64,000 bases of DNA from a virus. Within the stretch, counting starts at the first letter, position 1. Every line of letters begins with the position of its first letter. The notes beneath the pieces are model-generated. The model did not search any database. It was given only the letters and a program-made list of their open reading frames with translations, and was not told the DNA's origin. The DNA is taken from the IMG/VR virus record IMGVR_UViG_3300042881_002516, positions 1 through 64,000 of that record; one strand, 5' to 3'. The position numbers and the translations under genes are program-made. Shown here piece by piece: positions 1 through 64,000 of this stretch.

Positions 1-127
1 TACGTCGCTGCACTCCACGCTGCCGTGGGGTTGAACGGGCTGAAGGCTTGGACAGACACATCACCGTTGCGCGTGATGGCAAAGGCGTTGCTGCTGTTGT
101 CTACGAAGCGGTTGCTCTGACAGGTCA
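1..127. repeat. Exact 127-bp repeat, copy 1 (type B linker)
   Basis: The first 127 bases are identical to 63025-63151; the next base differs (g against a). Both copies lie in the same frame of the LamG fibre and encode a type B linker. A repeat that starts at base 1 and is exactly 127 long suggests that an assembler with k=127 opened the sequence at a repeated k-mer. Confidence 0.95.
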
Positions 128-2810
128 GCAGGGAGGTGTTGGTGATAGCGGTAAGTGGCGTCGTGCTAGGCGTGAAGTTGGCCGTGTAGACGGCGGTGCC
201 TTTGACTATTCTGAAATTTGAAAAATATGCCGTCGCCCCAAAACTTCCTTGTGGGTCATTGATACGAAAAGTTTGAATGCCTAAATCTGTGGTATTTGTG
301 GCACTACCAATACTTACTCCGTTGAGATAAAGAGTAATTGTGCTGCCGCTTCTAACCAACGCCAAATGATTCCAAACATTCAATAAAACGGATGATGATC
401 CCGTGATTACTGCAACTAATGATGATCCGTTGCCCACATAGAAAACTGGCACTCCAGTTGATCCAACAAAAAATGACGACATTGTGTTTGGGGTGCCGCC
501 ACTAGTTCTATAGTCCCAGATAGTGCTACCGTTCCCATTGTATGCCGTCATAAATAGAAAACATTCAATGGTGAAGTCGTTAGCACCCAGAGCTAAGTTA
601 GTTGAAGTGCCAATACTTAAATAATCCCCCGTTCCATCAAAGTAGTTCCCCCACCCCGTCTGCGAAAACGGCGAGAACGTTCCCTGCGTCGTGTTGCCGT
701 TGCGGGTGATCGTAAAGTTGTTGGTAGACGAGTCTAGGAACGTATTGTTCTGCGCTCCGTTGGTGCCGTTACCGGGCAGCAGTAGAGTGGTGTAGTCGAA
801 GTAAGGATCGGCAGTCAGCGTGACCGTACCGCCGATGTTGGGGAACTCTGCCGTTGGAGGCGTGAAGTTGTAGGGGTAGCGGCCTATGCCGTTGCTAATA
901 CGGAAATCGTCAATGTAACCGACTAGCGTATAAGAGGTGCTGTAGTAACCACCAATGACTAAATTTGTCGCGGTAACGTCCGTCGTATTAGCGGCTGAAG
1001 CAACTTGCGTTCCGTTTACAAAAACCTTTACAACGCCGCTCGTCCTGCACATGGCGATGTGATACCAAGTGCTGTTATTGATAGTGAAGCCGGTTGATGC
1101 ACTTGAGCCGCCAAGTGCGTAATAAAGAACGCCACTAACAACGGCCATCATCATGCCGTTTGTATAAGAGGTTGCGAACCCCCCGGCGGTTGTGGACAAC
1201 TGGAAGATTCCATCATCTGCGCTGGAATTAGTATAAATCCAGTACTCAACCGTGAAATCGCCAGTCCTAAACGCAAAGTTTTGGTTTGATGCCGTGGGCA
1301 GGTAATCCCCCGTCCCATCAAACGACATAGACCCCGTGCCGTACTTCTTGACCGAGGTACTGACCTGGGCATTGCCGACCGTCTCGTAATCCGCAACGGC
1401 AGCGTTGTCGAAGATACCGGCGTTGGTGAAGTTGGCAAGAAATACGGTGTTTGCATCTGTCGTCAATAAGGACGACGGAACTGCGCTAATTGTTCTTGCA
1501 GTATTAGAGATGCGGATATTGGATATGAATCCGGTAGTAATGTAACTACCCCAGTTAGTTCCAATTTTTAGCGTTGTATTTGATGCGTTTGTTGTTGAAG
1601 ACGCTGACGCTATCTCTGTACCGTTTAGGTACATCTTTATAGTTGATCCGTTGTAAACCATAGCAAGGTAATGCCATGCGTTTAAAACTGGCGTAACGCT
1701 GCTGATAGCCTGTGTCCCGCCTACCTGAACAGCCCACTTTGCCCCGCTGCTGTTTTCAATTCCCATCCATGTTCGTGCGCCATCGCCTACGCCAGTCCCT
1801 TGTGCAACGATGGTTTGCGTAGAACTACTGCTTGTTATGTAAGCCCACGCCTCAATCGTAAAGTTTCCGCTAGGAATGATTTGAGAACTAGTGGTTTCAA
1901 GATAATCCCCACTCCCATCAAAGTAGCCGCTGCCACCGACCGTGCTAGTGCTGTAGGCCGTGGTGGGGTTGAAGGGCGAGAAGGGCTGGACGGAAGTATC
2001 CCCGCCTCGCGTGATTGTGAAGTTGTTGGAGGAAGCGTCAAGGAACCTATTGGCTTGGCAGGTGAGAAGCGAGGTACCGCTAATCGCGGTAAGCGGTGTA
2101 GTTGGTGGAGTAAAGTTAGCCGTATAAAGTCCGACGCCTTTTAAGACGCGAACATTGCTCATGTAACCAACAAATACCTGTTGAGGACTATCTGCACCGC
2201 CAGACCGATTACCAACGTAAAAAGTTTGCGAACCGCCAATGGTTATGCTAGCCGTACTAGCGCCACTTGCTCCGACAACGCCATTGATGAAAACTCGCAA
2301 CGTCCCTGAATTTCTTGAAACAGCAATATGATTCCAAGAATTTAGCGTAAATTTATTGGTGGTGGTGAATGCAACCGCACCGTCGTAATAGACTAGAGTT
2401 TGGTCACCAGCATTATTTATATTCCATTGATCCGCCTGCCCAGACCCGCCAGCGCCCATGATAAATCTATAAGTGCTGGCATTGCCGTCAGCCGTTGGAT
2501 AAATCCACGCCTCGTACGTAAAGTCACCAGTCCCGTAAGAAAACGCTGCGTTTGCTGGTGCGCTTACAAAAGTCGTGCTTCCGCTAAAGTAGTTCCCCCA
2601 CCCCGTCTGACTAAACGGACTGAACGAGCCTTGGGTGGTGTTCCCGTTGCGCGTGATGGTGAAGTTGTTGGTGCTGGAGTCCAGAAATGTATTGTTCTGG
2701 GCGCCGTTAGTCCCATCGCCGTGAAGCAATGAGGTGACGGAGTAGAAGTACGGATCTACTGCGGCGGCCTGTGGGGCACCACCTAACAAAAACAGGAGGG
2801 GCGCTGTCAT
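1..2810 (-). CDS. Giant LamG-domain tail fibre, N-terminal part (runs off left edge)
   Basis: About 936 residues of one open frame with no stop before the window edge. It begins at ATG 2810, three bases past the upstream stop, reading MTAPLLFLLGGAPQ. The body is a chain of LamG/concanavalin-A-like jelly rolls of about 200 residues, each with a line such as GDFTVEYWIY, then W.HIA, then VGYI.DFRIS. Three kinds of linker alternate: A (NGAQNNTFLDSSTNNFTITR, near 2690 and 740), B (SLLTCQ.NRF.D.SSN, near 2040 and 110) and C (FLANFTNAGIFDN, near 1430), giving A-B-C-A-B. LamG folds bind glycans or pack as trimers, so a host-surface receptor-binding fibre is inferred. The missing C-terminus is probably the segment at the right edge of the window. 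The domain call rests on pattern recognition, not a profile search. Confidence 0.85.
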   Translation of the reverse strand, partial: MTAPLLFLLGGAPQAAAVDPYFYSVTSLLHGDGTNGAQNNTFLDSSTNNFTITRNGNTTQGSFSPFSQTGWGNYFSGSTTFVSAPANAAFSYGTGDFTYEAWIYPTADGNASTYRFIMGAGGSGQADQWNINNAGDQTLVYYDGAVAFTTTNKFTLNSWNHIAVSRNSGTLRVFINGVVGASGASTASITIGGSQTFYVGNRSGGADSPQQVFVGYMSNVRVLKGVGLYTANFTPPTTPLTAISGTSLLTCQANRFLDASSNNFTITRGGDTSVQPFSPFNPTTAYSTSTVGGSGYFDGSGDYLETTSSQIIPSGNFTIEAWAYITSSSSTQTIVAQGTGVGDGARTWMGIENSSGAKWAVQVGGTQAISSVTPVLNAWHYLAMVYNGSTIKMYLNGTEIASASSTTNASNTTLKIGTNWGSYITTGFISNIRISNTARTISAVPSSLLTTDANTVFLANFTNAGIFDNAAVADYETVGNAQVSTSVKKYGTGSMSFDGTGDYLPTASNQNFAFRTGDFTVEYWIYTNSSADDGIFQLSTTAGGFATSYTNGMMMAVVSGVLYYALGGSSASTGFTINNSTWYHIAMCRTSGVVKVFVNGTQVASAANTTDVTATNLVIGGYYSTSYTLVGYIDDFRISNGIGRYPYNFTPPTAEFPNIGGTVTLTADPYFDYTTLLLPGNGTNGAQNNTFLDSSTNNFTITRNGNTTQGTFSPFSQTGWGNYFDGTGDYLSIGTSTNLALGANDFTIECFLFMTAYNGNGSTIWDYRTSGGTPNTMSSFFVGSTGVPVFYVGNGSSLVAVITGSSSVLLNVWNHLALVRSGSTITLYLNGVSIGSATNTTDLGIQTFRINDPQGSFGATAYFSNFRIVKGTAVYTANFTPSTTPLTAITNTSLLTCQSNRFVDNSSNAFAITRNGDVSVQAFSPFNPTAAWSAAT
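634..866. repeat. LamG type A linker repeat, copy 2
   Basis: This 233-bp block is nearly identical to 63631-63863; only scattered, often third-position, changes are seen. It encodes the type A linker and the start of the next jelly roll. The type A linker near 2590-2740 is a more diverged copy. The pattern indicates recent duplication or gene conversion inside the fibre gene. Confidence 0.9.
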
Positions 2811-4329: not shown

Positions 4330-4577
4330 GCAACCGCCTTTTCAATCTGAGCAACGTAATCGTCAAATGCAGCCTGCTGCTCGGGAAGCAGAATGGTGTT
4401 GATGGATTCCTCAAACAACCGAATCTTTTCAATCGTCTCAAACACTTCCTCAACGGACGGACACGGGCGCGGATCGTCCCAACGGGTAAAACCAGCCCCA
4501 CTGGTAAACTCCCATTTTGCGCCGGGGCGAAGCAGGTGCATCGCCGTATCAATGCCGACTAGTTGGTAAGCCTTCAT
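4326..4577 (-). CDS. Small unknown protein coupled to the oxygenase
   Basis: 83 residues (MKAYQLVGIDTAMHLLRPGA). It is mixed alpha/beta, with a Glu-rich helical C-terminal half (SVEEVFETIEKIRLFEES) that could form a coiled coil. It shares ATGA with the oxygenase start, and its own start at 4577 abuts the stop of the poly-glycine fibre gene. I recognise it only as a type of small gene seen beside fibre-linked oxygenases; a partner or substrate carrier of the oxygenase is a guess from coupling. Confidence 0.65.
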   Translation of the reverse strand: MKAYQLVGIDTAMHLLRPGAKWEFTSGAGFTRWDDPRPCPSVEEVFETIEKIRLFEESINTILLPEQQAAFDDYVAQIEKAVA

Positions 4578-6268
4578 TAGTAGTTCACCTTAAGGATCAC
4601 GATACCGGAACCGCCTGCTGCACCATTTCCGTAAGGGGCTTCAGAACCAGCGCCCCCACCCCCACCCGTGTTGGCTGTTCCAGCGGTGTTTGCGTTACCG
4701 CTGTTTGAGCCATTGCCACCGCCACCTGTGCCACCTGTACCGCGTGTTCCCGGTGAAAAAGTGCCGCCGCCACCACCACCAGCATACGTTACGCTGCTGC
4801 CAGAAATAGACGAGGCCGTGCCGTTACCACCGTTACCGCCGTCGGAATTGGTTCCGTTTGAACCAGTTGCGGAAGCACCGCCGCCGCCTGCGCCACCATA
4901 GTTAGGCGCATTACCCCCAGAACCACCATTGTTTCCTTGAGACGGTGAGGTATTTGGGGTATTTCCAAGGCCAGCATTTGCGCGGTTTGCACCGCCGCCG
5001 CCAGAACCGCCATTTGCGCCAGCAGCAGGAGCATTCGGGAAGGCTGGACTATTTGAGCCACCGCCACCGCCGCCTGTAGCGGTAATAGTGCTGAACGTAG
5101 AATCGCTGCCGTTGATGGTCGTTACTGTAGTTGCCCCAGCGCCGCCACCGCCAACAGTAATCGTATATTCCGTTCCTGCTGTAATACTTAACGCGGTCCC
5201 CGTGCGGAAGCCGCCTGCCCCGCCGCCGCCAGCAGAAATGTACCCACCTCCACCGCCACCCGCAACAACCAAATAGTCAACGCTGACAGCACCGATTGGG
5301 GCTACCCATTTCTGCGTAGATTTAAACGTGAAGATCGTGGTTGATGTTGGTACTAAATATTTGAGAACGACAATGCCAGAGCCGCCAGCGCCGCCAGCAA
5401 AAACGGTATCTCCTGCGTTATGACCGCCACCTCCACCGCCACCGCCAGTATTGGCGGTACCTGCTGTTCCAGCCGCGCCTAATCCACCTGCACCGCCGCC
5501 ACCGGAACCGCCCGATCCTGCGTTAGTTGATGACCGCCAATTTGATCCGCCACCGCCGCCGGCATAAGTAACTGACGAGCCACTAATGGACGAAACAGTA
5601 CCATTGCCTCCGTTACCGCCGTTCGTAGAAGTTCCATCTGCGCCTACGGCAGACGCTCCACCGCCACCACCTGCTCCGTAATTCGGAGTTGTAGCAGGTG
5701 CGCTTCCTCCATTATTACCTTGAGATGGCGAAGTATTTGGCGTATTTCCTGCCGCACCCGGTATAGCCCCCGGAACGCCAGCCGCTGCTCCACCACCACC
5801 AGAGCCGCCTGCTTGAGCCGCAGTTTGTGTTCCTGCGCCGCCGCCGCCGCCAGCAGATGTGATAGTACTAAATACGGAGTTACTACCAGATGTTCCGCCA
5901 TTTGCAGAACCACCGGTCGCCGGGCCACCGGCTCCGCCAGCGCCAATCGTAACGGTGTAATCGGTGCCTGCCGTAACACTTAATCCGGTGCCTGTTCTAA
6001 AACCGCCTGCACCGCCGCCACCAGCAGAATCGCCACCACCACCACCGCCACCCGCAACGACAAGGTACTCAACTTCAGTTACACCAGTTGGGGCAGTCCA
6101 AGTGCCCGAAGCGAGGAAGGTTTGAACAATGGTAACAGCCGAAACAGGCCACGTTCCCGCAGCGCGATAAGGCAAAGCCTGACTTAACAGCCAAACTCCC
6201 TTTGCAGATCCTGTATTAACTGTAGGCGCAGCCGCTCGTATGACTCCGCCTGTATATCGCAGGGTCAT
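4577..6268 (-). CDS. Poly-glycine-rich tail fibre with duplicated domain
   Basis: 563 residues from ATG 6268, which shares one base with the upstream stop (TAATG). A longer frame reaches 6286, but the ATG reading MTLRYTGGVIRAA fits the spacing. Two homologous Gly-rich units follow: the first begins near residue 60 (VEYLVVAGGGGGGG) and the second near 330 (VDYLVVAGGGGGG). Each has the line AGGFRTGT..S.TAGT.YT and ends with GGSGIV.LK. Glycine-rich adhesins of this type are known from phage fibre tips, where glycine helices pack into a sandwich; a receptor-binding role is inferred. The near-identical halves imply internal duplication. Confidence 0.8.
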   Translation of the reverse strand: MTLRYTGGVIRAAAPTVNTGSAKGVWLLSQALPYRAAGTWPVSAVTIVQTFLASGTWTAPTGVTEVEYLVVAGGGGGGGDSAGGGGAGGFRTGTGLSVTAGTDYTVTIGAGGAGGPATGGSANGGTSGSNSVFSTITSAGGGGGAGTQTAAQAGGSGGGGAAAGVPGAIPGAAGNTPNTSPSQGNNGGSAPATTPNYGAGGGGGASAVGADGTSTNGGNGGNGTVSSISGSSVTYAGGGGGSNWRSSTNAGSGGSGGGGAGGLGAAGTAGTANTGGGGGGGGHNAGDTVFAGGAGGSGIVVLKYLVPTSTTIFTFKSTQKWVAPIGAVSVDYLVVAGGGGGGYISAGGGGAGGFRTGTALSITAGTEYTITVGGGGAGATTVTTINGSDSTFSTITATGGGGGGSNSPAFPNAPAAGANGGSGGGGANRANAGLGNTPNTSPSQGNNGGSGGNAPNYGGAGGGGASATGSNGTNSDGGNGGNGTASSISGSSVTYAGGGGGGTFSPGTRGTGGTGGGGNGSNSGNANTAGTANTGGGGGAGSEAPYGNGAAGGSGIVILKVNY

Positions 6269-6642
6269 TAGTTGATCTCTTCCCAAGAAGCGACGACAAC
6301 AAGATCACTGGCCGTGCCAGCCGTGGCACCAATAGACTGATCTTCCTTCAAGTAGATCGAAGTGTTCTTGTCGATAACAACCAACGTCGCATCAGCAGGA
6401 ACAGATACTGTGGAAGCCAGAGCGTAAGCCGTGCCGCCTAGGTCATCCTGACTGTAGACATTGATCGAAATATCTGCCGCGCTTGTACCGTCCACGTTCG
6501 CCACAATGATGCTGTTGATCTTAAAGACCTTACCGCTAGATGCAGCGTTGTTCACGATAGCCGTTGCATTCGTGGTGGAGAGTGATGTCAGTGAGTTGTT
6601 TCCATAAATCGTGGAAACATTGACAATATTTGGATTCGCCAT
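6268..6642 (-). CDS. Small virion protein, beta-rich
   Basis: 124 residues from ATG 6642 (MANPNIVNVSTIYGNNSLTS). The frame is open further upstream, but those codons would overlap the preceding gene. The sequence VFKINSIIVANVDGTSAADISINVYS and the line LVVIDKNTSIYLKEDQSI are typical of small jelly-roll fibre or collar proteins of aquatic phages. A related protein (MANKYLRQYLTPS..., 53646-53978) with the same kind of motif lies in the tail block. Virion role inferred from the family pattern. Confidence 0.65.
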   Translation of the reverse strand: MANPNIVNVSTIYGNNSLTSLSTTNATAIVNNAASSGKVFKINSIIVANVDGTSAADISINVYSQDDLGGTAYALASTVSVPADATLVVIDKNTSIYLKEDQSIGATAGTASDLVVVASWEEIN

Positions 6643-23466: not shown

Positions 23467-24411
23467 TCAGTCAGTCACCCACGGATCGTGCAGGTACACG
23501 CTCGCGCTCGATGGTGGTTCGATGCCTTCGCCCTCGAACCAGTCTGCGATCGTCTCGACGACGAGCTCCGGATCCTTCCATGCGAGCTCGCCGCTCGCGC
23601 CAGTGTTGTCGTCCTCGATGGCATTGATGAGCGCAGCAGCCTTCGACGGAGCATCGAGCACCCACTGGGTGAGTGTTCCCCGGATGTACGAATTGCGCGC
23701 CGCGCGCGTGATACGAGGCAGTGACTCGCCTGATGGCATCGAGCGCGACCGCGAGCTCGAAACGTACGGCTCCAGATCGTCGTCGTCCCACGTGTAGCCC
23801 GACCAGATGCGGCTCGACGTGTAGCGTGTGCTCACCGAGCGCGCGCCCACTCCGAACTTGTGAGCACTCCACGCATACGTGTTCGACAACCATGCACCAC
23901 GGAACTCGACACCGGCCGCACGATTGATGATCACCGCCGACCCGCTCGCTGTCATCATCCCGAACTTGTTCGAGCTTCCGATCAGGCTACCGACGAACGA
24001 CTGCCACGTGGGATCGAGCACGATTGACTCGTCAGCCTCGACGGCCGGCCGAATCACGTTTCTGATGAAGTGCCACGTGTCCGACTTTGATTTGTCCCAC
24101 GCATTACCAGTCGAGAGAATCCCGTTATGTGCGAGCGCAACGCGAGACGTGACGCCGTACGGATGGCAATTCTCGAGATCGATATCGCCATGCGTCTGCA
24201 TGCGCGCATGCCATACAGACTCGCGCCCCTCGATGTGCTCGCGATAAAAGGCGATGAACTGATCGACCGAGGCCGGCAGAGCCTTGACGACAACAAGCTG
24301 ACCGCCGCTTGAATACATGACGCCAATCCCGTCTCGATTGCCCGAATAGACGTCCGCCAAGAACTCATCCGAGAACGTGGTGCTCGATGGCTGATGAACT
24401 AATAAACACAT
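23467..24411 (-). CDS. Class II glutamine amidotransferase-like (Ntn) protein
   Basis: 314 residues from ATG 24411, which places Cys at position 2 as the N-terminal nucleophile of the Ntn fold; GGAGG lies 8 bases upstream. Family lines: SGNRDGIGVMY (23-33), WHARMQTHGDIDLENCHPY (67-85), LAHNGILSTGN (93-103) with the oxyanion Asn-Gly, SDTWHFIRNVI, GSSNKFGMM and AGVEFRGAWLSNTYAWS. The domain ends near 185; the last 130 residues are a low-similarity extension. These proteins release ammonia from glutamine or act on amides. It is encoded behind an amidoligase, a pairing reported for predicted peptide-bond-forming systems in phages and bacteria. Substrate unknown. Confidence 0.87.
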   Translation of the reverse strand: MCLLVHQPSSTTFSDEFLADVYSGNRDGIGVMYSSGGQLVVVKALPASVDQFIAFYREHIEGRESVWHARMQTHGDIDLENCHPYGVTSRVALAHNGILSTGNAWDKSKSDTWHFIRNVIRPAVEADESIVLDPTWQSFVGSLIGSSNKFGMMTASGSAVIINRAAGVEFRGAWLSNTYAWSAHKFGVGARSVSTRYTSSRIWSGYTWDDDDLEPYVSSSRSRSMPSGESLPRITRAARNSYIRGTLTQWVLDAPSKAAALINAIEDDNTGASGELAWKDPELVVETIADWFEGEGIEPPSSASVYLHDPWVTD

Positions 24412-24432
24412 GATAAAAACCTCCAAGACCTG

Positions 24433-25854
24433 TTAGGCCGCCTCTGAATGTTGAAAGAGACCCGCCGTACGATCCGCGACATAGGCGCGCATGACGCGCG
24501 TCTCCGTTTCGAGATGGTTCGCACAGTAGGCCAAGAACGCATGAGCATTGAGCGCGCTCGATCCAGTCTCCGCACGCGCGCAGTATTCAAGAATCGCGTG
24601 CGAGAACTCGATGGCCGAGATCACAGCCTCGTATTTCAACGAACCGCGAAAGATACGAAACTCGATCGTCTCGCGTCCGGTTAGGTTGATCGCCTCGTAC
24701 CGATCGGCCGAGAGATGAGCAGTCTCAACATCCTTTTCCACGACCTTGCAGAACGACGTGGAATACCGCCGGGCGATCGCAGTGATGAAAGCATCATTCC
24801 CCGGATCGTTCACGAACGTGACCGCGCGCGCGATCGTGAGATTCGAGAGCCCGGATCGACTCACGTGGACATGGAGGCCGCACGTCGTCGTTCGATGGCT
24901 GCGGAGGCCTCGAACCAGAGCAGGATCGCGCAGGAACGTGAACAGCTCACGATGAGCCGGCAAGCTCTGCGGATGGGTGATCATCTCGAACCCGCTCGAC
25001 AGACTGCCGTCACGCTCGAAAAAAACATGGCGACCGAACATGCCGCCATTCACTGACTGATGGATGGCGCGCGCCGCCTCTTCTGGATCGCGACTGTAAC
25101 CCTCGACTTCGAGCTCGACGCCCATGTATCGATTGAACTGCCGACACCAGTCATCCGCTCGAAACTCGAACGCACCCTTGGAAGAGTGGTAGCCCTGAAT
25201 AACTCGACGCTCTCGGATGTAATCGACGTGCATGTATATCTCGCGATCATCGTCATATTCAAAATCGTCCGCATCCTGATGAATCAGACACCGATCCCCG
25301 TCCTGATCGATAGCGGGTCGGCTGCTGTCACAGTGCACCCATGCGTCGTGATACTCCGACCACGTGTAGCTGTTGTCCTGGCATGACTCACAGACGAGCT
25401 CGCCGCCGTACGCATCAGCGAGATCGCCCACCGGGAACGACTCGCCGCAGCACTCGCACCCAGAGAAGGAGCCCCACTCGGACAGGCGATCGACCGCATA
25501 ACTGCGATCGTCCTCGACGAACTCCCAACGATAGAACAGGCGCGAGGCCTCGTGACTACTGACCACGTAATCGAGCGACGCCAGATGCCACTCGAGAGAG
25601 GGCGAATAGATGCCCTCCTCTTCAGTAAGCCCAACCACCCGAGTAAGGAACGACCACGGGGTCGAACTGCTAGAACGATGCGCTGCCTCACACAACCCGG
25701 CGAACCACTGCATGCGCTGCCGGAATTGACGGTAACCGCCGAGAGTATTCAGCGGCTTGACGAGCCGATCAGCGATCCGCTGTGCGACTACCTCCCGGCG
25801 ATCTGAATCGGCAAAAACGGCTTGAAAATAGGGCGTTTCGAAAATGTTCGACAT
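24433..25854 (-). CDS. Amidoligase-family (COOH-NH2 ligase) protein with zinc ribbon
   Basis: 473 residues. An N-terminal helical region is followed by a zinc ribbon (C133xxC136, C155xxC158), then an amidoligase domain from about 240 to 425. Key lines: YMGVELEVEGY (metal-binding Glu), ERDGSLSSGFEMITHP, TCGLHVHVSRSGL (HVH), RYEAINLTG and TIEFRIFRGSL. This is the glutamine-synthetase/GCS-like ATP-dependent ligase superfamily that forms amide bonds. With the amidotransferase next to it, the pair is predicted to add or remove amino groups on a peptide or small molecule. The acceptor cannot be read from sequence. The zinc ribbon may recognise nucleic acid or protein. Confidence 0.82.
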   Translation of the reverse strand: MSNIFETPYFQAVFADSDRREVVAQRIADRLVKPLNTLGGYRQFRQRMQWFAGLCEAAHRSSSSTPWSFLTRVVGLTEEEGIYSPSLEWHLASLDYVVSSHEASRLFYRWEFVEDDRSYAVDRLSEWGSFSGCECCGESFPVGDLADAYGGELVCESCQDNSYTWSEYHDAWVHCDSSRPAIDQDGDRCLIHQDADDFEYDDDREIYMHVDYIRERRVIQGYHSSKGAFEFRADDWCRQFNRYMGVELEVEGYSRDPEEAARAIHQSVNGGMFGRHVFFERDGSLSSGFEMITHPQSLPAHRELFTFLRDPALVRGLRSHRTTTCGLHVHVSRSGLSNLTIARAVTFVNDPGNDAFITAIARRYSTSFCKVVEKDVETAHLSADRYEAINLTGRETIEFRIFRGSLKYEAVISAIEFSHAILEYCARAETGSSALNAHAFLAYCANHLETETRVMRAYVADRTAGLFQHSEAA

Positions 25855-39793: not shown

Positions 39794-40567
39794 TTAAAAC
39801 GGTGCAGCGGCAGAAGCAGCGTCACCTTCGCTCTCGTGCTTCCCACGTACTGCACCCGAAGATACAGACAGTGCGAAGGATTTGCACGCGGCGTAAACGT
39901 CGTCTCGATCAATTGTACCAATACGCTCAACTTCCCAACCGAACCACTTGCCCTTGTCGTTTGACTCAGGCTGCGTGGTCAAGCGGTACATTTGGCTGTA
40001 CATCGGCGGGGTGAACAAACCGTTCTTACCCTGCAACTTCACCGACTGCATCATGCTGTTCCACTTGCGGCTCTTCTTGAGCTGCGTGGACTTCATGACG
40101 ATCATTGCCGGAGACGGCGTACCGTCCTCGTCAACTACCATCACGTAATGGTTGGCAGTGTTCTCGATGTAGTTACCGTTGTCGAGGTAGTCCTTGTTCT
40201 CGCCCGGTTCGCGGTGCGTACGGGAGAGGATGTCGGACGTGGCCGGGTAGATGTGAATCGGCGCACCGGAGCCGCTCCCACGGGGAGCCCACTCGATGTA
40301 CTGACGCACGTATGCGCACGGAACCACCACAATGCCCTTCTTACCATCGTAGAGCTGACCGGTGACGCTGTTGTAGATCATGCCGGGGAGTGCCCCGTCG
40401 ACCTCACCAACTTCCGGTGACGTGTTGGTCAGGAGTCGCAGGAACGGCAGGGCGAAGTCGTCCTGATTCATTCCGGCAAAACTGCTGCTGGCATCCTCTT
40501 CGAATGCCGTAGCAATCGCCAACGCGGTGGATGATTCGTTCTTCTCTGCTAAAGCTGTTTTAGCCAT
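39794..40567 (-). CDS. Single-stranded DNA-binding-like protein
   Basis: 257 residues. A central beta-rich domain (ALPFLRLLTNTSPEV, KGIVVVPCAYVRQYIEWAPRG, YVMVVDEDGTPSPAMIVMKSTQLKKSRKWNSMM) and a flexible C-terminus that is modestly acidic and ends with Phe (ESEGDAASAAAPF) like known SSB tails. This family stands next to AEP primase and polymerase genes in many aquatic podoviruses. Single-strand binding in replication is inferred; it could also be a recombination mediator. The gap to the primase start contains a GC-rich hairpin. Confidence 0.65.
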   Translation of the reverse strand: MAKTALAEKNESSTALAIATAFEEDASSSFAGMNQDDFALPFLRLLTNTSPEVGEVDGALPGMIYNSVTGQLYDGKKGIVVVPCAYVRQYIEWAPRGSGSGAPIHIYPATSDILSRTHREPGENKDYLDNGNYIENTANHYVMVVDEDGTPSPAMIVMKSTQLKKSRKWNSMMQSVKLQGKNGLFTPPMYSQMYRLTTQPESNDKGKWFGWEVERIGTIDRDDVYAACKSFALSVSSGAVRGKHESEGDAASAAAPF

Positions 40568-40583: not shown

Positions 40584-41138
40584 TTAAGCTGACTTGATTA
40601 CGGCCTTTTTACCGATGTACGCGCCGAACAGTTCCGTTGGGAACTCCTCGCCACGTGTCACCCGTTCCTTGACCCAGGCCTTCAGGGTCGAGGGTTCTAC
40701 TTTCTCGGACTGCTCGGCAGGGAAACCCTGCTGACCAAGCATGCCGAGGAGACGGTTGCACAACTCGTCCTCGCCACGCCCGAAGCGCACGCTGACGGTG
40801 TTTTTGATGATGTCGTCAAAGCCATGATCCCGGAGCCACTGGAAGGCTTCGGCACGTCGGGCTTCGCTAATCGAGGCGCTGTAGAAGGGCTTCACGTCGA
40901 TCGAGCTGCCATCTTCCATGCGGAAGGATGACATGCCCATCTCGGTGAGGGCTTCCGGAATAGCCTCCTCGGTCAACTTGCGATACTGCTCTTTCAGTCC
41001 CTTGAGCGTCGTTTCCTCGTCCTCGATCTGCTTCTCGAGTGACTTGGCACGACGGGCTAGGGCTGCGATACCGGTGATCTGGTCGTCTTGGACGCGCAGC
41101 GCATCGGCTTCTTGCTCAAATAAGCTCGTAAGGCTCAT
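40584..41138 (-). CDS. Coiled-coil replication-region protein
   Basis: 184 residues. A long coiled coil from about 15 to 65 (RRAKSLEKQIEDEETTLKGLKEQYRKLTEEAIPEALTEM), then FRMEDGSSIDVKPFYSASISEARRAEAFQWLRDHGFDDIIKNTVSVRFGRGEDEL and a C-terminal region with EPSTLKAWVKERVTRGEEFP. The pattern marks a small phage family (occasionally called Gam-like) placed next to SSB-like proteins. AGAAAGGAG precedes the start. Probably an exonuclease inhibitor or DNA-end factor; unproven. Confidence 0.7.
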   Translation of the reverse strand: MSLTSLFEQEADALRVQDDQITGIAALARRAKSLEKQIEDEETTLKGLKEQYRKLTEEAIPEALTEMGMSSFRMEDGSSIDVKPFYSASISEARRAEAFQWLRDHGFDDIIKNTVSVRFGRGEDELCNRLLGMLGQQGFPAEQSEKVEPSTLKAWVKERVTRGEEFPTELFGAYIGKKAVIKSA

Positions 41139-58302: not shown

Positions 58303-58784
58303 TTCTTACCGAATGCCTGCGTGCCAAACCAAAATGCGATGATCGAAGAGAGAATCAACATCTCGTCATCTGAGAACACTTCAGCCATCGCGGCGGCAAA
58401 TGGCACACCCGTGTTGTAGGCGTACCAGACTCCGGCGATATTGATGGCAACCAGTTCCAACACGAAGATGTAAGTGACTACCGGACGCACCGAAGCACGA
58501 AGGTTAATCATCCACTGGGATGCGCCTTTGCCAATCTCAATGTCGTGTTGATACAGAGCCTGCCGTTCTTCGGCTGCGGTTTGGGTCTGAATCTGCTCCA
58601 GTTTGATTTCCTCAACCCGCGCCTGAGCCAAAAAGCCACGCTCGGCTAATGCCAGTTCGCGTTCTTTCTGAGCCGCAACCAGAGCCAACTCATGCTTCTT
58701 GTCCTGCCGATCTTGGAAAATAGATAGGATCTTGGGTAGCCCACCCGCGAGGAACGACAGGAAGGTTGAGATCATTGTCATCAT
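58299..58784 (-). CDS. Holin-like membrane protein (3TM type)
   Basis: 161 residues. N-terminal hydrophobic helix (MMTMISTFLSFLAGGLPKIL), charged helix (QDRQDKKHELALVAAQKERELALAE), then two hydrophobic helices (VRPVVTYIFVLELVAINIAGVWY, EMLILSSIIAFWFGTQAF). This is the pattern of GTA-type three-helix holins. It should form the pore that lets the lysozyme reach the wall. The ATGA overlap with the fibre gene links it to late expression. Confidence 0.8.
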   Translation of the reverse strand: MMTMISTFLSFLAGGLPKILSIFQDRQDKKHELALVAAQKERELALAERGFLAQARVEEIKLEQIQTQTAAEERQALYQHDIEIGKGASQWMINLRASVRPVVTYIFVLELVAINIAGVWYAYNTGVPFAAAMAEVFSDDEMLILSSIIAFWFGTQAFGKK

Positions 58785-60646
58785 GGGTGCGTCCTCTTGT
58801 ACTCATCGAACTCGGCTTTGAGTTCCTGGATGGCCTTGATCAACGGGGCTACCAGCTCTTCGTAGCCAATCGACAGAACAGCATCGCCGCCCTTGAGGCT
58901 ATGATCCTGATAGCCACCAAAGTCCACGCCCATAGCATCCATTGTCTGCTTTACTTCTTGAGCAATCAGACCGTGGTGATAACGAGTACGAGTATGAGTA
59001 CCGTCATGCGTGATGTTGGCGAGTTTGCTGGCTTCCTGCCATGCAGCAAAGTCTACGTTCCAAGCAGCCAAAGCAGCTTGATATGCTTCGTCGCTTTCGT
59101 AGTCATCACGCTGCGGTTTAGTCGGAGCCGAAGTTCTGTAGTCTTCACGCATGTCCCACTTAAAATCGCGTGGGCGCAATGCCATGATGAAGTCCAGCCC
59201 AAGTCCGGTGTCTTTGATTTCTGTTTTATCGCGTTCATCCGAACGATTTTGGACTGAGCCGTAGGCATACGTCGTCGTTGACGCATCGCCCAACTGAACT
59301 TGGTTGCTGCCGGTTACGCTAGTGCTTGATCCAACGCCAACAATGTTGCTGTAGTTGCTGGATGATGCGAGGGCTTCAAACCCAAGCGCGGTCACATAGG
59401 TTCCGCTTGTAACGCTAGTTCCCGACAAACCGCCAATGAACGTGCAAGCATAAGAGCCGTTGCTTACTGCTAAATTAGCACCTGCTTCATAACCAAGAGC
59501 GGTGTTGAACGAAAGTTCATTTCCGGTGGCGACCGTAAAATCGTACAGTGCTTGATAGCCAATCGCGGTGGCACCAATAGTGGTAGTAAGGTTATTACCA
59601 GCACCAAACCCGATAGTTACGTTTCTGTATCCAGTAGTAAGTGAATAGCTAGAACCATTACCAACGGCGACGTTACCGAATCCGGTAGTGGCACTTTCTA
59701 AAGCACTGTAGCCAACAGCAGTGTTTGAGTATCCCGTACTGGCAACAGAACCATTACCTGCGAGTGCTTGATAGCCAATGCCTGTGTTAGCGTCCCCAGT
59801 ACGATAAATACCTGCGCCGTGACCCATGTAGGTACAGCCGGTATAGGAAGTTCCATAAGCACCACTGAAACGGCCAATAGCCGTGTTGATGGTTCCACTT
59901 ACTTGCTTCCAGCCAGCGTATTCACCAACAAACGTGTTCAAGCCACCGGTCGTTAAATCAGTACCTGCCTGGTATCCAACAACGGTATTACCAGCTCCCG
60001 ATGTAACGCTGTCGCCTGCGTTGGTTCCAAGCGCGGTTAAGGACGAGGTGGTCGTACCGGCAAGCGCGCTAGTCGATGCGATCGTGATGGACCCCGCGCC
60101 ATTGGTAATGGTGATGTTGCTGCCAGCCGTAAGGGTGGCTTTAGTCAGCGTGTTGCCGGTGGAATTACCGATCAGCAATTGACCGTTGGTGTAACTCGTC
60201 TGGCCAGTGCCCCCATCCGCCACCGCAACCGGCAGCGTCGGGTAGCTCGTCGCAAGCTCAACGTCCGTGCCGTCGCAAACAAGAATGACCTTTGTACCGT
60301 TTGCAACAGAAACACCCGTCTGGCCAGATACCTTGACGGTGACCTGCCCACTCGCGGTGTTGTTGTAGATAAAGTACAGCTTCTTCTTGGCAGGAACGAT
60401 CAGGTTCGTGGCCGCGCCACCGGTGCCGGTGAGCTCGATGTACATGTTTCGAGCAACGCCCGTCGAACCATCCGGGATGGTGATCGTCGTGTCCGTTCCC
60501 GTAGCCACCGCCTGCGTGACGTAGCCAGATACGGCCTGCTCCAGCAGCGTTCCTAGGTTAGTATTGGTAATGTCGCCCCAAGTGTCGGACTTTTCGCCCG
60601 TCACCATGAGCTCCAGGCCAAGGTTTGTGCTGTAGTTACTAGGCAT
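58781..60646 (-). CDS. Trimeric fibre with S74 intramolecular chaperone
   Basis: 621 residues. The N-terminus is the common virion arm (SNYSTNLGLELMVTGEKSDTWGDITNTNLGTLLEQAVSGY). The middle, 200-450, has beta-helix-like repeats (for example TAIGYQAL, TAVGYSAL). The C-terminus from about 480 is a peptidase S74 domain: NRSDERDKTEIKDTGLGLDFIMALRPRDFKW, HHGLIAQEVKQTMDAMGV and a terminal coiled coil. S74 domains fold the trimer and then cut themselves off at the Ser of SDERDK. This is a receptor-binding fibre or spike. It overlaps the holin start. Confidence 0.9.
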   Translation of the reverse strand: MPSNYSTNLGLELMVTGEKSDTWGDITNTNLGTLLEQAVSGYVTQAVATGTDTTITIPDGSTGVARNMYIELTGTGGAATNLIVPAKKKLYFIYNNTASGQVTVKVSGQTGVSVANGTKVILVCDGTDVELATSYPTLPVAVADGGTGQTSYTNGQLLIGNSTGNTLTKATLTAGSNITITNGAGSITIASTSALAGTTTSSLTALGTNAGDSVTSGAGNTVVGYQAGTDLTTGGLNTFVGEYAGWKQVSGTINTAIGRFSGAYGTSYTGCTYMGHGAGIYRTGDANTGIGYQALAGNGSVASTGYSNTAVGYSALESATTGFGNVAVGNGSSYSLTTGYRNVTIGFGAGNNLTTTIGATAIGYQALYDFTVATGNELSFNTALGYEAGANLAVSNGSYACTFIGGLSGTSVTSGTYVTALGFEALASSSNYSNIVGVGSSTSVTGSNQVQLGDASTTTYAYGSVQNRSDERDKTEIKDTGLGLDFIMALRPRDFKWDMREDYRTSAPTKPQRDDYESDEAYQAALAAWNVDFAAWQEASKLANITHDGTHTRTRYHHGLIAQEVKQTMDAMGVDFGGYQDHSLKGGDAVLSIGYEELVAPLIKAIQELKAEFDEYKRTHP

Positions 60647-61916: not shown

Positions 61917-64000
61917 TTACAGGGTCAGGAACGCCGTAGTCGGCGGGGTGAAGTTGCTGGTGTAACGGGCGATGCCTTTGGTGATGCGAAGGTCGTTGAT
62001 GTAGCCGAGATAATAGTTTGCTGGTGTGTGTTGATAGCCAACATTCATCTTAGTTGTTGCTGTGTAATTAGTTGAGTCAGAAGCACTTACCACTTGAACT
62101 CCGTCAAAAAACATACGCGAAGTTCCGTTGTATCTAGTTAACGCAACGTGATGCCAATTGTTATCTAATATGGACGTAGCCGATGCATTCATGAGGTTTG
62201 CGACCATTGTGGAATTTTGCCAATACAAATCTCCACCTGAAAACACAAGTCCGTAAGAACCTGTTCCAGTTTCAAGCCCAAACAATGATTGGGTAGTGCG
62301 GTTCGTTCGTATCCAACATTCCAACGTAAAGTCGCCTGTACCAAACGCAAAGTTCTGCGAAACAGGGAATAGGCAATAATCTCCCGTCCCATCCAAATAA
62401 ATAGACGACCCGCCGAACTTGCTCTGCGTCGTGCTGATCTGCGCGTTGCCCACCGTCTCAAGGTCGTTCTTGGACGTAGCGTCGTAGATGCCTGCGTTGG
62501 TGAAGTTGAGCAGCATATTGGTGCCGCTAATAGCCGTTGCAGGAGAAGTGGGCGGCGTTGCGCTTTCAGCCGAGCCAGCAACCATACGGAAGTCAGCCAT
62601 ATAACCTATATACGGCCAAGTCGTTCCAGACTGAATGCCAATGTAAACAACTTTTGTTGCAGAGCCAACTGTGCCGGTAAGCGTATAAGACCTAAACGAC
62701 GTACCGTTAACGTAGCCGGTCAACGTGCTTCCAGTACGGCTAATAGACAAAAATTGCCATTGGTTTAATTTGATTACGCCAGCAGCACTAAATGTGCTAT
62801 CGGTGGTCGTCAAGAATCGGATAGCCCCCGTATTGTCATACTGAATCAGCCATTCATTCGCTGCACCAGCACCCGCCCACGATCCCGCTAAGACATAAAA
62901 AGATGCCGCAAACGATGTGGGGTAAATCCACATTGAAATAGTGAAGTCGCCAGTTGGCGCGAACTGCCCGGTTGATGGGCCGTTGAGGTAATCGCCAGAC
63001 CCATCAAAATACCCACTCCCGCCATACGTCGCTGCACTCCACGCTGCCGTGGGGTTGAACGGGCTGAAGGCTTGGACAGACACATCACCGTTGCGCGTGA
63101 TGGCAAAGGCGTTGCTGCTGTTGTCTACGAAGCGGTTGCTCTGACAGGTCAATAGAGAGGTGTTAGTAATGGCGGTAAGGGGGGCGGTTGGAACCGTAAA
63201 GGCTGAAGTGTAAACCGCCGTACCTTTTACGATGCGTAAATTAGAAATGTACCCGTTTACGCTTTTAGTAGCGTCTGACGCTGCGCCAACATAGCAAGCG
63301 CCCGTAGCATAATTGACTGTATTTGTTGCAGAGCCAATTTGAGAGCCATTTACAAACCCGTAAACGGTTGATCCGCTACGAGTAAACGCAATGTGATACC
63401 AAGCGTTTGGCTGGAAGGAATACGAAAACATCGTATCCTCTGCAACCATTGCTCGGCCAATGCCCACCGTAGTCGCTTGGGTTTTTAAGAAAATTCCACC
63501 GCTTGTGCCGTTATCAATAATGTGCTTTTCAGCTTGCGCTGCTGTGAAGTAAACCCATGCCTCTAAGGTAAAGTCACCCGTTCCCATCCCAAACGCCGCG
63601 TTGCTTGGCGTTGAAAGATAGTCAGTTGTCCCATCAAAGTAGTTACTCCAACCCGTCTGCGAGAACGGCGAGAACGTACCCTGCGTCGTGTTGCCATTGC
63701 GGGTGATCGTGAAGTTGTTGGTAGACGAGTCTAGGAACGTATTGTTCTGCGCTCCGTTGGTGCCGTTACCGGGCAGTAGCAGAGTGGTGTAGTCGTAATA
63801 CGGATCGGCAGTCAGCGTGACCGTGCCGCCGATGTTGGGGAACTCTGCCGTTGGAGGCGTGAAACTGTAGGTGTATCGGCCTACGCCCTTGGAAATACGA
63901 AGGTCATCAATGTAGCCATTTAAATAGCCACCAGATGCGGTTTGCGATCCGACAAAAGCACCACTAAAACTGACTGCGCTGGTGTGCGAGGCAGAGCCGG
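61917..64000 (-). CDS. LamG-domain tail fibre, C-terminal part (enters at right edge)
   Basis: About 694 residues, open to the right edge; the first ATG inside (63587) is not the true start. Three LamG-like jelly rolls and the end of a fourth are seen, with type A, B and C linkers at about 63700, 63100 and 62480 in the same order as in the gene at 1-2810. The final domain ends YLGYINDLRITKGIARYTSNFTPPTTAFLTL. The frame and order fit the C-terminal end of that gene if the genome is circular. A receptor-binding fibre is inferred. Confidence 0.85.
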   Translation of the reverse strand, partial: GSASHTSAVSFSGAFVGSQTASGGYLNGYIDDLRISKGVGRYTYSFTPPTAEFPNIGGTVTLTADPYYDYTTLLLPGNGTNGAQNNTFLDSSTNNFTITRNGNTTQGTFSPFSQTGWSNYFDGTTDYLSTPSNAAFGMGTGDFTLEAWVYFTAAQAEKHIIDNGTSGGIFLKTQATTVGIGRAMVAEDTMFSYSFQPNAWYHIAFTRSGSTVYGFVNGSQIGSATNTVNYATGACYVGAASDATKSVNGYISNLRIVKGTAVYTSAFTVPTAPLTAITNTSLLTCQSNRFVDNSSNAFAITRNGDVSVQAFSPFNPTAAWSAATYGGSGYFDGSGDYLNGPSTGQFAPTGDFTISMWIYPTSFAASFYVLAGSWAGAGAANEWLIQYDNTGAIRFLTTTDSTFSAAGVIKLNQWQFLSISRTGSTLTGYVNGTSFRSYTLTGTVGSATKVVYIGIQSGTTWPYIGYMADFRMVAGSAESATPPTSPATAISGTNMLLNFTNAGIYDATSKNDLETVGNAQISTTQSKFGGSSIYLDGTGDYCLFPVSQNFAFGTGDFTLECWIRTNRTTQSLFGLETGTGSYGLVFSGGDLYWQNSTMVANLMNASATSILDNNWHHVALTRYNGTSRMFFDGVQVVSASDSTNYTATTKMNVGYQHTPANYYLGYINDLRITKGIARYTSNFTPPTTAFLTL
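63025..63151. repeat. Exact 127-bp repeat, copy 2 (type B linker)
   Basis: Identical to bases 1-127. Sequence on both sides differs from, or lies beyond, the left copy. It encodes the type B linker of the third super-repeat. Confidence 0.95.
63631..63863. repeat. LamG type A linker repeat, copy 3
   Basis: Nearly identical to 634-866 over the same 233 bp. High nucleotide identity over the linker and lower identity over the jelly rolls suggest recombination or gene conversion at linkers. Confidence 0.9.

Follow-up and report, generated by a model that had tools for sequence, protein, structure and literature searches.

A LamG array protein of an uncultivated freshwater phage with a fixed three-slot frame and jelly-roll cores that appear to be exchanged whole

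Results

A LamG array at both ends of a tailed-phage contig

Both ends of the viral contig studied here carry arrays of LamG domains, and we are fairly confident that they represent an adhesin-like, probably virion-borne protein with the domain order A-B-C twice, whose domain cores are replaced whole within a fixed frame and of which the contig most likely carries two alleles, called X (contig start) and Y (contig end).

The window, that is, the whole stretch of 64,000 nucleotides analysed, comprises bases 1-64000 of a source record of 65,292 bp. The array belongs to an uncultivated freshwater phage, which family matches in the record to terminase, portal, major head protein, an SU10-type adaptor and DNA polymerase mark as a tailed one. 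The minus-strand ORF that runs off the contig start with 936 aa is a LamG array (PF13385, E 1.4e-71), and the ORF at the other end (record 65292..61917, minus strand) is a second Laminin_G_3 array that runs off the contig end. Their PF13385 profile scores were 239.9 and 288.3 bits against a curated cut-off of 27.6, the units are approximately 215 aa long in both, and the profile search returned LamG-like families only. The heads of the start ORF follow the order A1-B1-C1-A2 and the start of a further B, while the end ORF contains the last 56 residues of one unit followed by B3-C2-A3-B4-C3 (Table 1). The spacing from A1 to A2 is 1,947 bp, which bears out the original prediction of an A-B-C alternation with a period near 1.95 kb.

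Table 1 Units of the LamG array, in window coordinates unless the record is named.
Feature	Position	Strand	Remark
LamG array gene of allele X, first 936 aa	3..2810	-	Complete as a 1,306-aa gene in L009
Unit A1, slot 1	2076..2756	-	
Unit B1, slot 2	1449..2075	-	
Unit C1, slot 3	810..1448	-	
Unit A2, slot 4	138..809	-	
Head of the slot-5 unit B, allele X, cut by the contig end	3..137	-	
X/Y convergence at the contig end	1..127	-	Identity with record 63025-63151 over all 127 bases
End of unit C2, slot 3, allele Y	63807..64000	-	C2 extends to record 64436
B3 and part of a further unit, beyond C2, allele Y	up to record 65292		
Unit A3, slot 4, allele Y	63162..63806	-	
Unit B4, slot 5, common to X (as in L009) and Y	62523..63161	-	Core also present in other phages
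Unit C3, slot 6, with stop codon, common to X (as in L009) and Y	61917..62522	-	

The segment A2-B4-C3 is predicted to fold into three jelly rolls (AlphaFold2 with a 77-row alignment, pLDDT 78.3, pTM 0.63; model confidence is low at residues 1-8, 11-23 and 446-462). The best matches among solved structures were laminin/neurexin LG-domain arrays (PDB 7cec, 2wjs and 3qcw, E down to 2.7e-16), with 10-12% sequence identity and an overall arrangement that is not superposable on the model (TM 0.2-0.3). Model and LG-domain matches agree on the jelly-roll fold that defines Laminin_G_3.

We infer that the array protein binds a receptor. The name "fibre" is an unproven label for it, as the Peptidase_S74 chaperone and a tail-spike family match lie in another gene (58781-60646), separate from the array gene. 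The presence of that gene, together with an N-terminal peptide that is short and variable among relatives, lends some weight to a different role, in which the array would not bind the receptor but would serve on the virion as an accessory adhesin, for instance to capsule, mucilage or the surfaces of particles, and core exchange would track those surfaces and not the injection receptor. Fast core turnover, however, suits host tracking equally well. We regard the accessory role as a serious possibility that falls clearly short of even chances; it is compatible with the exchange mechanism proposed below.

Slot-locked heads and nearly slot-free cores

Relatives were collected from viral contigs by scans for the upstream neighbour (80 loci), the downstream neighbour (80 loci, one already in the set) and the C-tail/A-head stretch (at least 79 loci), to which the phage record DSL-LC04 was added. 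Among the matches listed, 89 different ORFs encode arrays of at least two units. They supply 292 units long enough to use, and for 16 of these the head could not be assigned to a class. The frame recurs throughout: in three-unit arrays the head order was ABC in 46 cases and AB? in 11, while eight six-unit arrays read ABCABC and one A?CABC. Five arrays were off-order or possibly misread (ABB in 2, ABBB, ?BAB? and ?A in 1 each), and the rest of the 89 were partial and consistent with the ABC frame. Incomplete ORFs numbered 23; in 63 of the 66 that we judged complete there were three units (53) or six (10), with four in 2 and five in 1.

Each unit was cut into a head (to FDGxGDYL), a core of approximately 125 aa and a tail (from GYISNxR). 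The first strands of the jelly roll (FDGSGDYL) fall in the head and the last strand (GYISNxR) in the tail, so the conserved segments, taken at first for plain linkers, include parts of the fold itself. In 83 ABC triplets, amino-acid identity of heads was.786 in the same slot and.362 in other slots; the corresponding values were.548 and.426 for tails, and.264 and.251 for cores. The small slot difference of cores nevertheless exceeded that of all 200 label shuffles. Most arrays had been fetched by linker likeness, which biases the sample toward conserved heads. The 11 triplets fetched via neighbour genes agree with the full set (same and other slot: heads.766 and.336, cores.258 and.247, tails.558 and.375). 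Along the unit, nucleotide identities within and between classes lay at most 2 points apart from columns 64 to 184 and differed before and after (8-column windows, 4,000 pairs sampled for each). When each part was matched to its closest counterpart in another array, the two were of the same class for 269 of 273 heads, 214 of 261 tails and 161 of 265 cores, counts that omit comparisons with unclassified units. Furthermore, head distances correlated between slots (r.54,.47 and.34), whereas core distances did not for A-B (-.005) and A-C (-.007); for B-C they correlated weakly (r.157, 0 of 2,000 permutations). Given this correlation and the slot memory of cores, core exchange is not fully free. 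GC3 also separates the parts, with.35 in cores and.60 in heads over the arrays, and.450 and.713, respectively, in the window's own units.

Within a class, the window's own cores are at background identity (37-46% nucleotide, 23-38% amino acid), in line with the original prediction that the jelly-roll cores differ. The accompanying claim of nearly identical linkers is right for some pairs, namely the heads of A2/A3 (90% nucleotide identity), C1/C2 (88%, with 87% in the tail) and B1/B3 (83%). It fails within allele X, whose linkers share 64-73% among themselves, and the older head pairs are similarly distant (A1/A2 73%, A1/A3 69%, C1/C3 65%, B1/B4 and B3/B4 64%, C2/C3 63%). On the two-allele reading set out below, the nearly identical heads are the same slots of two alleles, and near-identity most likely arises from two alleles in one contig and is not a property of one gene. 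At 4-fold sites, A1/A2 heads agree at 7 of 24 (29%), the random level, and most older head pairs are at or near random (C1/C3, with 8 of 15, is less clear). Since the protein is conserved in these pairs, the older heads seem to be held by selection on the protein.

An improbable account is that gene conversion homogenises the heads while the cores drift and core exchange is rare. It could draw on the head pairs that are near-identical at synonymous sites too, such as C1/C2 (20 of 23 the same). Yet same-class heads within allele X have random synonymous sites, the near-identical pairs are those read as allelic, and core transfer is directly seen, as described below.

Probably two alleles on one backbone

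A second contig, L009 (IMGVR_UViG_3300044619_001429), matches the window at 100% identity over 12,000 bp on one side and 5,960 bp on the other, and in it the array is a single complete gene (1,306 aa, six units in the order ABCABC). These are A1-B1-C1-A2 as at the window start, followed by B4-C3 as at the contig end. Over the 1,383-bp overlap between L009 and the contig-end version, all 7 mismatches fall within the first 31 bases. The first base of the window corresponds to offset 157 of this overlap, which leaves a stretch of exactly 127 identical bases up to the contig end. Contigs built from a de Bruijn graph at k = 127 would stop in this way.

According to this 127-base convergence and to the joining of X to B4-C3 in L009, the contig ends are most likely two co-occurring alleles with the same B4-C3 end, X and Y turning identical inside the fifth head. 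If there are two alleles, the genome with X would close into a circle of 63,024 bp. The initial view of one gene split by the window ends is not supported, in the light of the six-unit gene of L009, the convergence and the lack of any exact repeat between the record ends (10-999 bases tested). No direct repeats were found in the C-terminal part under the limits set; BLAST finds similar pairs between the start and end parts of the array. For the A3 core of allele Y, 13 loci matched elsewhere, the best at 44% amino-acid identity.

The record might instead represent a single gene with at least nine units, in three or four super-repeats, whose contig broke at an internal repeat. A repeat of at least 127 bases would likewise stop assembly, and a forced join of the contig ends keeps an open frame; as a true gene, however, the circular join was rejected, as it leaves one domain without its first part. 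We rate such a long gene as quite improbable, because the otherwise identical phage L009 joins X directly to B4-C3 and, among the matches listed, six units is the maximum in the 66 complete arrays. With two alleles, the contig represents a natural allele pair on one backbone, and it illustrates that alleles of an array gene can look like one extended repeat gene after assembly.

Whole cores recur in divergent phages and other slots

Core identity is all-or-none: cores are unrelated as a rule, but some are 95-100% identical in DNA between divergent phages, at times in a different slot. Across 10,209 same-slot core pairs, 21 were at least 90% identical in amino acids, 10 lay between 50 and 90%, and 10,178 fell below 50%. 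Slot-by-slot comparison of ten arrays with six units (45 pairs, slot 6 of L176 being unreadable) gave core identities of 50-68%, the background of gapped alignment, bar three matches: L009/L174 in slot 5 (98%), L008/L180 in slot 4 (99%) and L174/L177 in slot 6 (99%). Outside the array, L008 is 92-96% identical to the window; inside, the two have 0 of 6 cores in common.

The B4 core is found at seven loci at 81% amino-acid identity or more (100, 100, 100, 99, 99, 90 and 81), the L009 contig included, and nine further loci match it at 26-35%. The remaining cores of the L247 and L174 arrays are unlike those of X, and in L251 the B4 core sits in a gene of 664 aa; the arrays of L249, L250 and L252 are cut, and the surroundings of B4 there could be judged in part. 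Cores also change slot. The core in slot 2 (B) of L200 is 95% identical in nucleotides to the one in slot 3 of L223 over 364 of 378 core bases, a likeness that sets in around YFDGTGDYL and fades at GYI, with no match in head or tail, and slot 2 of L189 has 78% nucleotide identity in common with slot 1 of L201. L170 and L176 share a 1,392-bp block at 98.9% that ends 17 nt from a head/core junction, and megablast finds nothing alike between them downstream of the gene end.

Altogether, 15 shared blocks (at least 90% identity and at least 300 core bases, whole-array matches dropped) gave 23 internal ends. Heads contain 16 of them, tails 5 and cores 2 (one core end lies 1 nt from a junction), although cores make up 54% of the length. 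The blocks are partly non-independent, and heads are alike anyway, so that block ends there are partly expected. The ends show that cores are rarely cut; the crossover positions are not located by this. The sequences thus show whole jelly-roll interiors being exchanged inside a conserved frame. Exchange of cores by recombination within conserved flanks, as originally proposed, agrees with the all-or-none identity, the sharing of cores by divergent phages and slots, and block ends that avoid cores. Uniform identity over linkers and cores, or no variation among strains, had been named beforehand as outcomes that would speak against it; linkers and cores turned out to differ in identity, and cores vary among strains. 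A conserved frame with exchanged segments common to unrelated phages, which marks a modular recombining recognition protein, is what the comparison returned.

If cores diversified where they stand, through rapid mutation driven by diversifying selection and with no exchange, this would explain why cores are the variable part in every comparison, but the account is very improbable and already largely refuted by the shared cores, given the all-or-none identity, the near-identical cores in divergent phages and other slots, and the lack of a match in the record to the reverse transcriptase (PF00078, 3 of 14 control genomes positive) of a diversity-generating retroelement, of which the array was considered a possible target and rejected.

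Discussion

The sequences show units made of a slot-specific head and tail and an interchangeable core, the middle of the jelly roll. Whole cores are replaced among related phages, among distant ones and occasionally across slots, and the frame stays. In the mechanism that we propose, co-infecting phages would swap them by homologous recombination, with conserved head and tail DNA as homology arms; the short FDGxGDYL and GYI stretches may enable slot changes. The cores would bind surface glycans, and changing hosts could maintain the diversity of the core pool. A site-specific, invertible or shufflon-like fibre gene was rejected, the record being without a match to integrase (PF00589) or resolvase (PF00239), for which 14 and 10 of 14 control genomes, respectively, were positive. 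RecT also had no family match in the record, and the absence of a match to any of these recombinase families counts against the proposed mechanism. We see a balanced chance that many uncultivated aquatic phages share a combinatorial recognition system of this kind, with a common pool of jelly-roll interiors recombining through the fixed slots A, B and C. Exchange would then take place inside the domain and not between domains, and an array could be re-armed slot by slot, somewhat like variable regions set in a framework.

Phages are already known to carry LamG arrays, and mosaicism of their recognition proteins is known as well. The LamG/concanavalin A-like arrays (PF13385) of Synechococcus phage S-SKS1 and Pseudomonas phage vB_PaeS_SCUT-S3 likewise contain several LamG_3 jelly rolls but are without the A and C heads of this frame. 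Among 50,697 phage records these heads occur in one, the metagenome-assembled DSL-LC04, whereas the C-tail/A-head scan of viral contigs gave at least 598 confirmed stretches. DSL-LC04 (OR003939, Dishui Lake metagenome) has a complete six-unit ABCABC gene adjoining a 2OG-Fe(II) oxygenase gene, with 47.5% amino-acid identity over 99% of the query; all its cores are unlike those of X and its N-terminal module is of another type. The accessible portion of the paper describing it mentions neither lectin nor concanavalin (PMC10611076).

Domain mosaicism and recent exchange of tail-protein parts are reported for phage receptor-binding proteins, in a text whose available part is free of the words lectin, LamG and concanavalin (PMC10684548). 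Compared with that account, as far as the available part goes, the moved part here is the domain middle in a fixed slot frame. 'Metagenomic islands', in which variants of recognition genes coexist in one viral population, are alike in their coexisting variants; a modular LamG frame is not described in the accessible part of that source (PMC11631230). Our searches of open-licence PMC papers brought up no publication that describes a phage LamG frame with three slots. The frame offers a readable grammar of recognition-protein shuffling (fixed frame, slot order, arrays of 3 or 6 units, whole cores moving), and core donors become traceable across phages.

Some further observations concern the array loci and the remainder of the contig. 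A Bacteriovorax MAG contig was considered as a pointer to the host and set aside as too weak (a single locus, 60% identity over linker-query residues 33-97). Several types of short N-terminal peptide (e.g., the one at window 2810, minus strand) precede the same frame in different phages, among them MSGxxQLLLGG-like, MAGNLTAMIAAAFSG-like and MPVISRLAVAAARAYG-like ones, and are possibly virion anchors. More than one LamG array ORF is present in the loci L187, L189, L193, L219 and L235, which looks as if the ABC gene had been duplicated as a whole. On the minus strand of the window, the genes at 39794-40567 and 40584-41138 are similar to gp34 and gp33 of cyanophage Pam3, and glutamine-amidotransferase-like and amidoligase-like genes are adjacent at 23467-24426 and 24433-25854. 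Also on the minus strand, a glycine-rich protein (4577-6286) has the N-terminal module MTLRYTGG...KGVW...AGTWP. The same module forms the N-terminus of the LamG array in DSL-LC04 and L185 (L088 from 6277 and L185 from 7340 onward), as if attachment modules were swapped too.
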